The notes under the pieces: generated by a model
Seen by the model: the letters and a program-made list of their open reading frames with translations, nothing else
What the model was told of the DNA's origin: nothing
The model's database searches: none
Made by a program: the position numbers and the translations under genes
Source of the DNA: Gammaproteobacteria bacterium
GTDB lineage: Bacteria > Pseudomonadota > Gammaproteobacteria > SZUA-229
Length of the DNA: 51,317 nucleotides
Reading direction: 5' to 3'
NCBI GenBank assembly: GCA_013041745.1
Contig: JABDRN010000028.1
Location: 123,028-174,344, forward strand
In this document: in pieces, positions 22,182-28,158 of the stretch
How positions within the stretch are numbered: the first letter of the stretch is position 1
Layout: each line of letters opens with the position of its first letter

Positions 22182-22988
22182 CTAGGCGGCTTTTCTACGG
22201 CCTATCCAGCCAAGTAAAGCCAGTCCTGAGCTGAACAGGATAATTGGTAGAGGCAGGGGAACGACCGCAGTTTGAGTATGGAAAGCACCAGCAAGAGAGA
22301 TGTTTGCGTTGGCGTTATTGCCACCAGCATTAACATCACCATTGAAGTCATTACCTATAAACAATCGGATGTAGCCCAATTCTATGTCATCAGCTAGCCA
22401 TGAAGATATGTCTTTGCCGTCTTTATCGACTAGGTTGTCGCGAAGGTTAATCGAGGTAGTGAAAATATTGCCTGAGAACTTAGAACTCGATTTTGGGTAG
22501 GTCTCTGAAGCATCAGTTGTTGGATTGACTCGGTACATATAATCGCTGAGTAAAGTGCCATCGCTGAGTAAGGTGCCGTCACTATCAAAAGTAGCGTCAT
22601 TACCAAAGGCCTGTAGCCCGAAAGTGTAGTCAAATTCAGACCACTGAGAGACTATAACAAGATCAACACCTGTGCCGGTAACAACCTTTTTATCGCCGAA
22701 ACCAAGGTCAATTGATGACCAGTTTTGAAGGGGGGACGTACCGGTTATGGGATTGTTAAGGCCATATATAGAGGGGATGGAAGTAGGTGAAGGATTAGTT
22801 TTTAGCGATGTGATATTACTGTTAAATATCGACTCTATTTCATTATTATTGAGCGCGGTGTCGCCTGGCGTTGAAGAAAAGCTACCATATGTACCTATTA
22901 CCTGAGTAGCATAAGCATTGACACCAGCTGCCTGTACTGGAGCTGCTAATGTGGCAAGAATGATATTCAGTAACAGCAATTGTTTCAT
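22182..22988 (-). CDS. secreted protein with VPLPA-CTERM-like C-terminal sorting signal
   Basis: This protein of about 268 aa has a Sec signal peptide (cleavage near APVQA). The C-terminal tail starts with VPLP, is followed by a hydrophobic helix, and ends in GRRKAA, the tripartite PEP-CTERM/VPLPA-CTERM architecture recognised by exosortases. The body is rich in N, S, T and G, with a small internal tandem duplication (LLSDGT twice, from an 18-bp DNA repeat at about 22548-22583). I prefer the ATG at 22988 (GAGA 7 nt upstream) to the earlier ATG at 23027, which lacks a binding site. No exosortase gene is in this window. The likely fate is surface or matrix export. Confidence 0.8.
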   Translation of the reverse strand: MKQLLLLNIILATLAAPVQAAGVNAYATQVIGTYGSFSSTPGDTALNNNEIESIFNSNITSLKTNPSPTSIPSIYGLNNPITGTSPLQNWSSIDLGFGDKKVVTGTGVDLVIVSQWSEFDYTFGLQAFGNDATFDSDGTLLSDGTLLSDYMYRVNPTTDASETYPKSSSKFSGNIFTTSINLRDNLVDKDGKDISSWLADDIELGYIRLFIGNDFNGDVNAGGNNANANISLAGAFHTQTAVVPLPLPIILFSSGLALLGWIGRRKAA

Positions 22989-23052
22989 GACTATTCTCAT
23001 TAAATTTATATTTTTAAAATTTATCATTATCTACATGGATGCCCGTTGAACA

Positions 23053-23502
23053 TTAATTAAAAGTTACGTTTGTCGGTGGTGTTGCACCTGGTGGGGCGAA
23101 AGTTGTAGGGGCAACGGGTCTTGGCGGTGTTACCGGTGGCGCTGGCGGTGCCGAGGGCACTACGGGCGGCATGATCGGGGTCTGCACGACAGCAGGTGGT
23201 TGACTCGGTGGTGCCAGTGCAGAGATACTGTTGGTGCGTAAGGTAACCCTGCTGTCACGCGCGTTCAATGCACCGGTCGACGGTGGTGTCAGTCCGCCGG
23301 CAGCGGGTTCGATATCCAATTCCCATGCACCCCATTTCGTCACCGAATCTACATACGCTACCTCTGACTCACTTTCCTCATCGGAGTCTCTCCACTTTAA
23401 CTCTCCGGCAGACACGGTTGATGCCATCATCAGCATCATAATTAGCGCAAGTTTCTGTGTAAGCATGCTGATCCCACATGCTTTATATTGTGCGTCGCTC
23501 AT
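23053..23502 (-). CDS. secreted proline-rich protein
   Basis: This 149-aa protein has a hydrophobic signal (about residues 14-32, MLMMASTVSA then GELKW). A short charged part follows (SDEESESEVAY), then a C-terminal half dominated by Pro/Ala/Val (PSAPPAPPVTPPRPVAPTT). Residues 66-69 are P-A-A-G, the type of dialanine sequence cut by LapG proteases, and a LapG-like protease gene lies nearby at 25432; this link is speculative. The first ATG (23502, GAGA 5 nt upstream) and an internal ATG at 23466 (GGGA upstream) are both plausible starts. The function is unknown; an envelope or linker protein is the best guess. Confidence 0.65.
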   Translation of the reverse strand: MSDAQYKACGISMLTQKLALIMMLMMASTVSAGELKWRDSDEESESEVAYVDSVTKWGAWELDIEPAAGGLTPPSTGALNARDSRVTLRTNSISALAPPSQPPAVVQTPIMPPVVPSAPPAPPVTPPRPVAPTTFAPPGATPPTNVTFN

Positions 23503-24079: not shown

Positions 24080-25381
24080 TTAGATGAAATAGCGGGCAAG
24101 ATTGATGGCAAATATCTTCCTGTCATAATTATAATAATCAATATTTGAATTATTACGGGTATATGAGATGTGGGTGTTTAGTGTCCAGCCCTTCAAATAA
24201 CCATCACTGAAATCATAATTGTAACCGAGTACATATCGGCTCTCGATCTCGTCTCGGACAGTTGGCGGGTTGCTCGCCAGCTGGTCGGCTGCGTCATATT
24301 TATATTGTTCAAAATTAAGGTTTAGATAGACGTTGCTGGTTTTAGCAAAGGTAACAAATCCGCCGAGATATATTTCTTCGCTGCTAAAGCCAAACTGATC
24401 GTCATCGGCAGTATGATCGGTGAGCCTGAAGCCAATCTCCAGCCCATTGTCAGCATCTCCGAGTAATGTTGAATACGCGGCCCCGCCCAAAAGGGTGTTG
24501 CCGTCGCGCCCTTCATCTTCCGGGCGTTTGAAATCATTATCACTATAGGAAAGCTCGAAGGTGAGGCCGCGGTAGTTTCCCAGGTCAAAAGTCACTAATG
24601 GATTAAGTGATATGAAGGTCCCGAGTGTAGATCCTCCGAAATAGGTCTGGTCTACCTGCAGGTTGATCGCGCCATTCCAGCGTCCGGTAGATATGAACGC
24701 AGGCCCCGTGCTGGCACTGATTATGTTCAGGCTGAAATCGCTGTTGCGCGTGTAATTATTTCCGGTCCAGGAAACCTGGCTCTGCCATTCGAAATTTGTC
24801 GCGGCACCAGCCGCATTGAACGGTTTATTGTCTTTATAGCGGTGTGATGCGCTAAAGAATGTATCGAGGCCTGGTGAGGCCGTATCCTCACCATCGGGGA
24901 TGATATCTGTGCCACGTAGCGGTGCGAAGTTGATATTGGTGTTATACATCACACCGGCTTTGGTGTAATAAGAAAAACTATGTTCGGTACGAGGCTTGAC
25001 CTCATCGCTGGTCAACTGGCCGAGATAGGCAAGTATAGCGAGACGCACTTTCTCAGGTGTTTCGGGATTATCGAGTACGGTCTGAAATTCCCGCAGTGCA
25101 TCATCATACTGGCTGGCGCGGTGATAACTGACGGCGAGTTCGAGGCGGGCGCGGTTCAGCGATGGCCTTCTGCTCAGGATATATTCGAATTTTTCGATCG
25201 CATCAAAAACTTTTCCGCTGTCTCGCTCTTCCATGGCAAGTTCAAAAATTTTCTGCGCATGTTCATCCGTCATGGGTTCTTCTTTTTTGCCCTCATCGGC
25301 ATAGACCGGGTTGAGGTATATAAAAATAAGGAGCAGGGTAGCGAGGCAGGTGGATAATGTATTTGGCTTTATAATATTCAT
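24080..25381 (-). CDS. outer-membrane TPR plus beta-barrel protein (Slam/DUF560-like)
   Basis: This 433-aa protein has a signal peptide (about residues 1-28, cleavage near VYA). TPR-like helices follow (about 35-130, FELAMEERDSGKVFDAIEKFEYIL, RARLELAVSYHRASQYDDALREFQTVL). A C-terminal beta-barrel spans about 145-433, with alternating aromatic strands and an aromatic ending (INLARYFI). This TPR-plus-barrel order is that of Slam-type surface lipoprotein translocators (DUF560); the family call is from overall architecture only. It diverges from the LapG-like gene with a 50-nt gap, so the two may share a control region. It probably assembles or exports a surface protein. Confidence 0.72.
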   Translation of the reverse strand: MNIIKPNTLSTCLATLLLIFIYLNPVYADEGKKEEPMTDEHAQKIFELAMEERDSGKVFDAIEKFEYILSRRPSLNRARLELAVSYHRASQYDDALREFQTVLDNPETPEKVRLAILAYLGQLTSDEVKPRTEHSFSYYTKAGVMYNTNINFAPLRGTDIIPDGEDTASPGLDTFFSASHRYKDNKPFNAAGAATNFEWQSQVSWTGNNYTRNSDFSLNIISASTGPAFISTGRWNGAINLQVDQTYFGGSTLGTFISLNPLVTFDLGNYRGLTFELSYSDNDFKRPEDEGRDGNTLLGGAAYSTLLGDADNGLEIGFRLTDHTADDDQFGFSSEEIYLGGFVTFAKTSNVYLNLNFEQYKYDAADQLASNPPTVRDEIESRYVLGYNYDFSDGYLKGWTLNTHISYTRNNSNIDYYNYDRKIFAINLARYFI

Positions 25382-25431: not shown

Positions 25432-26082
25432 ATGGTTAAAAAAACGCAATGTTTGCTTATCTTACTCTTTTTACTGGCAAATTCTAATGTTTGGTCAGCC
25501 CGTGCGGTATCTTCCATGCCGTCCGACCTGTTCGGTTACCAGGAAATACAGAAAGATAATTTAATTATTTTTCCACAGTGGCTGTCTGTCCTCGAGCGTC
25601 ATCTGTTAAATATCAAAGACAACTCTTCCTGCCAGTCGGCAACATTTAACCAGTGCCATCTATCGCAGTGGAAGGCTTTTTTAGAACGAATAAAGCATCT
25701 TCCTCTCAAGCAGCAGATTAAAAGTGTCAACAGATATGCCAATGAAAAAGATTATGTGCTGGATATCGAGAATTACGGAGTGGCTGATTACTGGGCAACA
25801 CCAAAAGAGTTTTTACTGAATAATGGCGATTGTGAGGATTATGCCATCATCAAGATGCTGTCGATGAAATGGCTGGGTCATGATGTTGCTACGATGCGGG
25901 TCGTCGTGGTGCAGGATACTAACCTCAGGATACCACATGCGGTGATGGCGATCAGATACGGTAACGATATCCTGATACTTGATAACCAGATAGAAGAGGT
26001 GATATCGCATGCGGATATCTTTCATTATGTACCGGTCTATTCGGTGAATGAGAATAACTGGTGGATGCATGTGCCGAATTAG
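25432..26082 (+). CDS. LapG-like periplasmic transglutaminase-like cysteine protease (BTLCP)
   Basis: This 216-aa protein of the bacterial transglutaminase-like cysteine proteinase family (DUF920) has a signal peptide of about 23 residues. The catalytic triad is visible: C134 in NNGDCEDYAI, H169 in RIPHAVMAI and D184 in LILDNQ. In Pseudomonas, LapG of this family clips the dialanine site of a giant adhesin and is held inactive by the c-di-GMP receptor LapD. Here the next gene (45 nt downstream, same strand) is a membrane sensor with a degenerate HD-GYP domain instead of LapD. No giant adhesin is encoded in the window, so the substrate is unknown. Confidence 0.88.
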   Translation: MVKKTQCLLILLFLLANSNVWSARAVSSMPSDLFGYQEIQKDNLIIFPQWLSVLERHLLNIKDNSSCQSATFNQCHLSQWKAFLERIKHLPLKQQIKSVNRYANEKDYVLDIENYGVADYWATPKEFLLNNGDCEDYAIIKMLSMKWLGHDVATMRVVVVQDTNLRIPHAVMAIRYGNDILILDNQIEEVISHADIFHYVPVYSVNENNWWMHVPN

Positions 26083-26127
26083 TGTCTCATCTAGTCAATG
26101 GCCAGGCAGATATGGATGTGAAGGTGA

Positions 26128-28158
26128 ATGGTGAATAATAAACCTGCAACGATAGCTCTCATTTTATTGCTGCTTTTTATAAGTGGCAGTATATGGCTGG
26201 TGTTTAAGTATGTGTCTGCTGAAGAGCAAAGAGACCTCGATGCCTGGCAGTCGCGGCTGAGTATCATGGCCGAATCACAGCAGTATGCGGTAGAGGCCTG
26301 GTTTGATGAGCAGCTGGAAAATATGGATGCACTGGCAAATAATCCTTTATTACAGCTATACGTCACACAGCAGGATTTGCCCGTGACAGAGGATGACGAA
26401 ACGGGGCGCGGTCAGCTGCACCATTTAAAAAATCTCATCAATGCAACGGCAGATCATGCTGATGTGTTTACCCCGATCAAAAAAATTAATAGTAATGTAG
26501 AGAATGAAGTGAATGATGGCATCGCCATCGTAAATCGTTCTGGAGTCTTGCTGGCGACACGTTATTTTCCACTTGGTGACGCCGAGGTCGCTGCGAGTTT
26601 TCAGACTGCGATCGATAGTAAGTCATTCTATATCTCGACAATTTATGATTCAGCAGAGAGGCATCCGCGTTTCATCATCGTGGTCCCGGTGCGCTCTGTG
26701 CAGTCGCTAAGCCCGGACGATATCAAGGCGGCTGTGGTCGCAGTCATCAATCCAGAAGATAACCTCTATGAGCTGTTGTTAAAAGACTGGGTGACTATAC
26801 GTACCGAGGAAACATTGCTGGTGTCGTATGATGATAACAGGGTGAATTATCTGAGCCCGTTAAAAAACGGCTATCAGTTATTCCATAGTCAACCACGAAG
26901 AGGTGATGTACCTGCAAAAAATATAGCAGCTAGTACCGTACTGGAGAATATTGGCGAAAATGTGATGGTGCAGGATTATCGTAATGTCGATGTCCTGGCA
27001 ACGGCGAGAAAGATAAGAAACACATCGATGACCCTGGTGCAGAAGATTGATGTCTCCGAAGCGCTGGCCGAGTCTAATTCACATCAACAGTTCATATTGA
27101 CCATCTTCCTGCTGGCCGTTTTTGTCATTACCATAAGTTTTATCGCTATCTGGCGGCACTCGACCAGCCTACGCTTGCAGAAAGCAACGAGACGGCTGGA
27201 AGCGCGTGCCGCATTGTTAAACGCGGTAGGTGACAGCATCAATGACCATATATTTCTGCTAGACCATAACAATAAGCTGGTATTCATCAATGATGCCCTG
27301 GCACGATCATTCTCTATAGATAACGTAGATGTTCGTGGAAAGGCTTTGAATCACATCTTCAGTACGGATATAACGAAGCAGTTGCTAAAGTTAAAGCCGG
27401 CTGATGGTGAAGCTGATGTGCGTAACAGGGAGATGCGTCTCGAGCTGAAAGACAGGCGCCGAGATTACCATGTGTCGATCGTTGCCTTGCGTCATCCTGA
27501 TTACAAGCAGTCGCACCTATATGTGATGCATGATATCACCGAGTTAAAAGATGCACAGGGCAGGCATAATCGCCTGATGGAGGGTATCATCTCTACTCTG
27601 GCACAGGTCATCGATAAACACGACCCGCATTGTGCGCATCACTCGGAACGGACGCGGGAAGTCGCTACCGCTATCGCGCGGGCAATGGATCTGCCAAAGG
27701 AACGCATCGATATACTGTCGATGGCAGCCCTGCTGGCAAATATCGGCAAGTTATACATACCCGCTGAAGTATTGACCAACATGGAGCCATTGACACAAGC
27801 CGAGGAGTTGATGTTGAGAGAGAACATAAACTATAGCGTAGAGATATTGAAAGACCTCGAATTTGACGGGCCGGTCATCGAGTTCGTGCAGCAGAAAAAC
27901 GAGTGTCTCGATGGCAGCGGCTATCCGAATGGTGTTTCTGGCGACGCTATCTTCCAGGAGTCGAGGATACTGTCAGTAGCTAATGCATTTGTTGCCATGA
28001 CCAGCTCCAGGGCATATCGTCCTGGTAAGCCAGTCAAAGAGGTGCTGGATATCCTGTTATCTGAAGCTGACAGCCGCTACGACAGACATGTTATCGCCGC
28101 CCTGTTTCATGTTGCAGAGAATCATTCTGACTGGGTCAGCTGGCAGCAGGTGAATTAA
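26128..28158 (+). CDS. membrane sensor with periplasmic domain, PAS and degenerate HD-GYP domain
   Basis: This 676-aa protein has TM1 (about 8-30), a roughly 290-residue periplasmic sensor region (dCache-like layout), TM2 (about 322-342), a PAS domain (about 362-470, VGDSINDHIFLLDHNNKLVFIND) and an HD-GYP-like domain (about 485-670). Metal ligands of active HD-GYP phosphodiesterases are lost. The HD pair in LLHDIGK is AN (LLANIGK, 535-541), the HH before the GYP loop is KN (QQKNECLDGSGYP), and the distal Asp region reads SVANAFVAMTS. GYP itself remains. It is therefore more likely a c-di-GMP-binding or regulatory module than an enzyme. It lies directly after the LapG-like gene, probably in one operon, and AAGGTGA precedes the start. 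Confidence 0.85.
   Translation: MVNNKPATIALILLLLFISGSIWLVFKYVSAEEQRDLDAWQSRLSIMAESQQYAVEAWFDEQLENMDALANNPLLQLYVTQQDLPVTEDDETGRGQLHHLKNLINATADHADVFTPIKKINSNVENEVNDGIAIVNRSGVLLATRYFPLGDAEVAASFQTAIDSKSFYISTIYDSAERHPRFIIVVPVRSVQSLSPDDIKAAVVAVINPEDNLYELLLKDWVTIRTEETLLVSYDDNRVNYLSPLKNGYQLFHSQPRRGDVPAKNIAASTVLENIGENVMVQDYRNVDVLATARKIRNTSMTLVQKIDVSEALAESNSHQQFILTIFLLAVFVITISFIAIWRHSTSLRLQKATRRLEARAALLNAVGDSINDHIFLLDHNNKLVFINDALARSFSIDNVDVRGKALNHIFSTDITKQLLKLKPADGEADVRNREMRLELKDRRRDYHVSIVALRHPDYKQSHLYVMHDITELKDAQGRHNRLMEGIISTLAQVIDKHDPHCAHHSERTREVATAIARAMDLPKERIDILSMAALLANIGKLYIPAEVLTNMEPLTQAEELMLRENINYSVEILKDLEFDGPVIEFVQQKNECLDGSGYPNGVSGDAIFQESRILSVANAFVAMTSSRAYRPGKPVKEVLDILLSEADSRYDRHVIAALFHVAENHSDWVSWQQVN

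Follow-up and report, generated by a model that had tools for sequence, protein, structure and literature searches.

Which surface protein does a LapG-type protease serve when the receptor encoded beside it is not LapD? This question is raised by a 51,317-nucleotide stretch of DNA (the window, meaning this stretch at its full length) from a gammaproteobacterium of the lineage SZUA-229 (assembly GCA_013041745.1, contig JABDRN010000028.1, positions 123,028 to 174,344), in which a gene for a bacterial transglutaminase-like cysteine proteinase (BTLCP) precedes one for a membrane receptor with a degenerate HD-GYP domain. We consider it probable that this pair is a switch of the DvhG/DvhD type (Font et al., 2026; PMC13090378), responding to cyclic di-GMP (c-di-GMP) and gating the proteolytic release of a surface protein of the type handled by type XI secretion systems (T11SS). 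The gene content, its conservation, the motif of the candidate substrate and the homology to DvhD have all been established computationally.

The protease gene and the receptor gene proved to be as a sequence-only reading of the window had described them. The protease exceeds the cut-off of the Pfam family Peptidase_C93 (66 bits against 27), and its predicted triad C134, H169 and D184, together with D133 of the DCE calcium/catalytic motif, is invariant in an alignment with 21 relatives; of 84 related proteases, 83 have the DCE motif and one has an X there. As it reaches 76.8 bits against a cut-off of 320 for the NCBIfam LapG equivalog, it is not a LapG equivalog. The receptor open reading frame does start 45 nt after the protease stop, and two transmembrane (TM) helices enclose a large periplasmic domain, which the sequence-only reading left unnamed and which is a dCache domain (its dCache_1 score of 42 bits is just below the Pfam cut-off of 45). 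The cytoplasmic part combines PAS with an HD-GYP domain in which the HD pair is A537-N538, the HH pair K590-N591 and the distal Asp N619, GYP being intact; LapD_MoxY_N and GGDEF-EAL are absent from the receptor according to Pfam. These losses are family-wide: in none of 92 family sequences does the HD motif begin with His (it begins with A in 58, C in 16, M in 11 and S in 4), nor does the HH pair (K in 72), and the distal Asp is replaced by Asn in 91. Because the pattern is uniform across the family, it does not reflect chance decay. In ten HD-GYP proteins encoded at different loci in the same class, the HD-motif and distal Asp ligands are retained.

The nearest characterized protein is DvhD, a c-di-GMP receptor that has SQ for HD and MN for HH and is unable to hydrolyse its ligand (Font et al., 2026; PMC13090378); according to earlier studies to which that article refers, DvhD controls the protease DvhG. 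The best sequence matches of the window receptor in the PDB are 9rc0 (DvhD PAS/HD-GYP, E 2e-41) and 9rbz (DvhD HD-GYP with c-di-GMP, E 3.8e-36), which outrank catalytically active HD-GYP proteins, and a profile built from 21 family members again places these DvhD structures first. A fold search with the predicted receptor structure (predicted local distance difference test, pLDDT, 79; predicted template modelling score, pTM, 0.45) ranked 9rc0 and 9rbz highest and gave 9rc2, the DvhD periplasmic domain, as the top Cache match; thus the three solved DvhD structures are, in order, each the top fold match for their own region of the receptor. In a tree of 56 HD-GYP domains all degenerate receptors separate from the active enzymes (support 100/99) and form three groups, namely Desulfovibrionales DvhD, alphaproteobacterial receptors and the group of the window (support 95/89), most of whose loci also contain the barrel module described below. 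By this sequence phylogeny the window clade is sister to Desulfovibrionales DvhD and is not nested within it. Another receptor, L211, was considered as a DvhD and rejected, as the tree groups it with active HD-GYP proteins.

Seven residues by which DvhD contacts the ligand (L577, Y621, M646, R650, Y652, R653 and E668) are all identical in the window receptor. Across the 92 family sequences, R650 and R653 are kept in all, L577 in 91, P567 in 89, Y652 in 78 and M646 in 70. In the bridging c-di-GMP site of DvhD, P567 is kept in the window receptor, K520 is replaced by H and R569 by E. This partly unconserved site, and the fact that dCache domains usually bind ligands, would suit an outside-in receptor that senses a periplasmic ligand and uses its HD-GYP remnant purely as a dimerisation scaffold; we regard this as improbable, given that retention of the canonical c-di-GMP contacts with loss of the metal ligands is the binding-only pattern seen in DvhD. 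Judged by sequence, the receptor-protease pair is DvhDG-like. The proposal of the sequence-only reading that the receptor is a LapD analogue built on a different c-di-GMP domain is therefore well supported, by the match to DvhD in three domains (sequence and fold) and by the shared ligand losses; with DvhDG of Desulfovibrio vulgaris published (PMC13090378), the idea is right but was already known, from another phylum. That the receptor sequesters the protease is a proposal here, as it is for DvhD itself.

What the pair might control is indicated by its neighbours. A scan of 84,980 genomes yielded 80 loci, and the protease gene lies within 1.5 kb of the receptor gene in 64 of the 69 loci with enough flank, so that the pairing, whose conservation had been named as a check, holds across genomes. 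In the window, minus-strand genes extend the module upstream of the pair as far as about 22182, a part on which the sequence-only reading was silent. The protease gene and a gene for an outer-membrane barrel protein with tetratricopeptide repeats (TPR) diverge from starts 50 bp apart. Among 20 relatives a TPR-barrel gene stands across the divergent promoter region from the pair in nearly all, usually followed by genes for a small exported protein and a PEP-CTERM-like protein. The small protein carries a WGxW box, and of the 51 barrel loci with sufficient flank among all those collected, 48 have a WGxW protein beside the barrel. The hosts include Thiotrichaceae-like gammaproteobacteria, Thiohalobacter, Thiogranum, Neptuniibacter, Sulfuricella, Azonexus, other Rhodocyclales and Desulfobulbaceae. 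In most loci of the last group the genes share one strand, in the order protease, receptor, barrel and WGxW protein; since the four genes are kept together in a different order, the linkage survives rearrangement.

The pair could instead act as DvhDG is known to do, that is, control a distant LapA-like adhesin of a type I secretion system (T1SS; PMC13090378), with the barrel and WGxW genes as unrelated passengers. This is very unlikely, because those genes stay linked to the pair across phyla and gene orders and the WGxW protein bears a cleavage motif, and because the source genome, which is 95.7% complete (all absences from it are subject to this figure), has neither retention_LapA nor T1SS HlyD over the cut-off. 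For HlyD the best score was 40.6 against 208.65 bits; retention_LapA gave four weak matches, three of which, tried as LapA-type adhesins encoded elsewhere, were rejected as FecR or LysM-FecR proteins. The sequence-only reading had proposed looking through the rest of the genome for an adhesin with a dialanine site; the target so implied, one of the T1SS type, is not borne out by these searches, and a candidate substrate adjoins the pair. A canonical lapD beside another lapG would have spoken against its proposal; the window protease is the single BTLCP encoded in this genome, and no canonical LapD was detected in it, with a model that likewise left 14 control genomes unmatched and that does match LapD at two other loci (L172 and L174). 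At the Desulfovibrionales-type loci L209 and L210, no T1SS gene was found among the four neighbouring genes tested.

The candidate substrate is the WGxW protein. Its likely true start is the ATG at 23466, and its predicted cleavage segment is WGAWELDIEPAAGG. Residues W57, G58, W60, P66, A67, A68 and G69 are invariant in 17 relatives whose mean column identity is 16%, the spacing across the module being WGxW-x(4-5)-PAAG, and the pattern occurs once in the source genome, in this protein. Cleavage by LapG and DvhG falls between the two alanines of [T/A/P]AAG (PMC13090378). Of the 52 WGxW proteins in the counted loci, 43 have PAAG at the site, 2 have AAAG and 1 has TAAG, and outside these loci L128 has TAAG; overall, [T/A/P]AAG is present in 50 of 57 family proteins, compared with a mean of 4.7 and a maximum of 11 in composition-preserving shuffles. 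The box is always N-terminal, adjoining the signal peptide. In many relatives the protein is longer (330-480 aa) and ends in a C-terminal barrel, for which TbpB_B_D exceeds its cut-off in 4 of 10 long-form cargos scanned (L090, L092, L093 and L128); one long form resembles, below cut-off, the NCBIfam family 'Slam-dependent surface lipoprotein'. A PEP-CTERM-like neighbour accompanies 21 of 29 short-form WGxW genes versus 5 of 24 long-form genes, and we tentatively regard the short forms with this neighbour and the long forms as split and fused versions of the cargo.

A natural exchange of receptors bears on whether this motif is cut. At L172 and L174, from two other gammaproteobacteria, the barrel and WGxW genes stand beside a canonical LapG-LapD pair (LapD_MoxY_N, GGDEF, EAL). 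The L172 protein has WGHW followed by RILLGADPSQITEPTAAG, a segment resembling the LapG site of a genuine LapA of the same class, AILAGADPTEITDATAAG; when the cleavage segments are compared, L172 has GADPSQITEPTAAG and the true LapA GADPTEITDATAAG. The L172 site thus has the LapA-type arrangement helix-DP-TAAG and stands 21 residues away from WGxW, and the match of this protein to retention_LapA is confined to model positions 91-116, the cleavage segment. In the complete genome G087, which has no BTLCP, a FecR protein beside the barrel has SPYSWGPW and no AAG, a pattern that is suggestive, not conclusive. It could be argued that WGxW-PAAG is a docking signal for the barrel that remains uncut, the protease having its target elsewhere, and the equal invariance of PAAG and WGxW in the 17 relatives is what a single binding motif would give. 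We regard this as improbable: the residue before AAG varies as P, T or A, within LapG specificity, the site becomes LapA-like beside LapG-LapD, and the genome without a BTLCP retains WGxW and loses AAG.

Two proteins concern the anchoring of the WGxW side. At L056 (13334-14089) a short WGxW protein is apparently a lipoprotein, in which a long coiled N-terminal part precedes WGDWGNGIKPAAG, suggesting the N-terminal side as the anchor. At L175 (10608-11393), in a genome without a BTLCP, a FecR-domain protein has a C-terminal WGPW box beside a related barrel gene, which hints that WGxW is a barrel-docking element.

As for the translocator, the AlphaFold2 model of the window barrel protein has an N-terminal TPR domain and 14 strands, the layout of Slam/T11SS proteins (PMC8406197). 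Its E-values are 7.6e-5 for TPR_Slam and 0.0023 for SlipAM (PF04575); at an E-value of 0.01 or better, TPR_Slam is found in 26 and SlipAM in 11 of 28 relatives, the best SlipAM value being 2.6e-9. A fold search of the PDB returned generic porins and barrels (OmpG, CymA), with no Slam entry among the listed matches.

Taken together, these elements suggest the following sequence of events, in which the binding of c-di-GMP by this receptor, the inhibition of the protease, the cut, the route of export and the direction in which release runs are all inferred. c-di-GMP would bind the degenerate HD-GYP domain, and the signal would run via the PAS stalk and the TM helices to the dCache domain, which would keep the periplasmic protease inactive. 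A drop in c-di-GMP would free the protease to cut the exported WGxW protein at PA|AG, parting the N-terminal WGxW piece, presumably docked to the periplasmic face of the TPR-barrel protein, from an exported C-terminal part, which would be the Pro-rich tail in the window and the TbpB-like barrel cargo in relatives. What would be let go is a surface protein that a Slam/T11SS-type translocator had put on display, and not a T1SS adhesin. The main rival uses the same parts with the opposite purpose: the cut would free a precursor held in the periplasm, permitting export instead of ending display, and low c-di-GMP would promote secretion of soluble cargo. With the WGxW box N-terminal and the T11SS targeting barrel C-terminal, the sequence fits either order of events; LapA, CdrA and DvhA, however, are cut by the same class of protease once displayed (PMC13090378; PMC4694147), and we hold this rival to be unlikely, while taking it seriously.

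Several observations weigh against release of a T11SS-type cargo by a DvhD-type switch. In the receptor, K582 of DvhD and K520 and R569 of the bridging site are not conserved across the 92 family sequences. The window barrel falls below the Pfam gathering thresholds, with 18 against 22 bits for SlipAM and 23.5 against 35.2 for TPR_Slam. The window WGxW protein has no family match to the TbpB-like barrel, the T11SS cargo-targeting domain, and 6 of the 52 WGxW proteins deviate at the site (PAAM in 2, PSAG, PKAG, PLAG and PEAG), including the LapD-linked L174, which has PEAG. Finally, the BTLCP-free control is a single genome, G087.

Table 1. Coordinates of the module and its parts in the window.
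Feature	Position	Strand	Basis or remark
Exported protein, PEP-CTERM-like tail (VPLP...GRRK), companion of short WGxW proteins	22182..23027	-	weak PEP-CTERM match
Small exported Pro-rich protein, 149 aa, WGxW-x5-PAAG; candidate protease substrate	23053..23502	-	17 relatives aligned
WGAWELDIEPAAG motif; predicted scissile bond A67-A68	23296..23334	-	sole pattern match in genome
Barrel protein: signal peptide, TPR domain, 14-stranded barrel; Slam/T11SS-related	24080..25381	-	AlphaFold2 pLDDT 84
BTLCP (LapG/DvhG-type) protease, Sec signal peptide	25432..26082	+	216 aa; Peptidase_C93
Protease triad codons C134, H169, D184	25831-25833, 25936-25938, 25981-25983	+	DCE motif intact
DvhD-like receptor: TM, dCache, TM, PAS, degenerate HD-GYP	26128..28158	+	676 aa; Pfam, PDB sequence, fold search
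Periplasmic dCache, residues 43-304	26254..27039	+	PF02743 42 bits; 9rc2 TM-score 0.73 (target-normalised)
PAS domain, residues 366-470	27223..27537	+	PF00989 27 bits
Degenerate HD-GYP domain, residues 491-655	27598..28092	+	HD_5 (Pfam); family alignment
Receptor HD->AN, HH->KN, distal D->N	27736-27741, 27895-27900, 27982-27984	+	

Other loci show further arrangements. At L090 and L143, of the Sulfuricella type, a single barrel gene and a single gene for a long WGxW cargo lie between two protease-receptor pairs. At L092, L105, L117 and L138 a single barrel gene is followed by two long WGxW cargo genes in tandem; the box is WGAWT in one member of each couple and WGPWE in the other. In the complete genome G175 (L167 and L214) the barrel gene is away from the protease, receptor and cargo genes and adjoins an insertion sequence (IS)-type transposase gene. 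Genome G297 has, besides a canonical LapG-LapD pair, a DvhD-like module that has a cargo of its own (L215 and L171). Nine alphaproteobacterial loci (L116, L121, L125, L126, L127, L130, L133, L136 and L139) have DvhD-like receptors adjoining a BTLCP gene, which is on the opposite strand to the receptor in most of them, L127 having two BTLCP genes; neither a barrel gene nor a WGxW gene was found in these nine. The PEP-CTERM-like companions, that of the window and its counterparts across groups, have a common tail and little other visible likeness. No EpsH exosortase was found in the source genome, in a search for which the control genomes were also weak.

The protease-receptor mechanism being already published for sulfate reducers, what looks new is its target. 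DvhDG pairs outside Desulfovibrionales may already stand in the class-level distribution of Font et al. (PMC13090378). No paper joining LapG with Slam or surface lipoprotein assembly was found in the open-licence literature, nor, in a search that covered part of the papers naming both, any c-di-GMP control of T11SS; one such paper has a single passing mention of c-di-GMP. A survey of T11SS cargo, restricted to clusters 1 and 3, mentions no transglutaminase, HD-GYP, c-di-GMP or PEP-CTERM (PMC12282271). On balance, we consider it probable that c-di-GMP-gated proteolysis of the LapG class controls Slam/type XI-like cargo, with two unrelated receptors, DvhD-like and LapD, interchangeable over the same translocator and WGxW substrate. 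The scope would probably be Gamma- and Betaproteobacteria and Desulfobulbaceae, and this would be a third export pathway under such control, after T1SS and type Vb. If true, a switch thought specific to giant adhesins would be a portable module that has come to serve another outer-membrane translocator. For T11SS-like systems beyond host-associated bacteria this would mean a possible regulator and a motif for substrates, and DvhD-type receptors would be broadly distributed beyond Desulfovibrio. Cultured hosts that are not pathogens, such as Thiohalobacter thiocyanaticus and Azonexus fungiphilus, allow direct testing.

Compared with known systems, the module is closest to DvhG/DvhD (PMC13090378; 9rc0, 9rbz, 9rc2). 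In both, a BTLCP gene adjoins that of a dCache-PAS-HD-GYP receptor whose HD, HH and distal Asp ligands are gone and whose canonical c-di-GMP contacts are retained, and the receptors form one clade apart from active HD-GYP proteins. They differ in that the window receptor belongs to a sister clade with a partly unconserved bridging site, and in that the window system has a Slam-like barrel and a WGxW-PAAG protein in place of a T1SS and giant adhesin. With the LapG/LapD/LapA system of Pseudomonas fluorescens the window shares the protease family, the [T/A/P]AAG site and probably the logic, and L172 and L174 combine canonical LapG-LapD with barrel and WGxW protein; however, the window receptor is not a LapD_MoxY-HAMP-GGDEF-EAL protein, the candidate substrate is without the LapA retention module and the export would not be by T1SS. 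CdrA, a type Vb adhesin of Pseudomonas aeruginosa, is likewise a non-T1SS surface protein subject to LapG-type release, although under LapD control and exported by two-partner secretion (PMC4694147). Finally, T11SS/Slam (DUF560) proteins (PMC8406197; PMC12282271) have the same N-terminal TPR and 14-strand barrel, and their cargo the same C-terminal TbpB_B_D barrel as in relatives of the window; the window copies differ in lying under the Pfam cut-offs, and the cargo here in carrying a putative protease site at its N-terminus.

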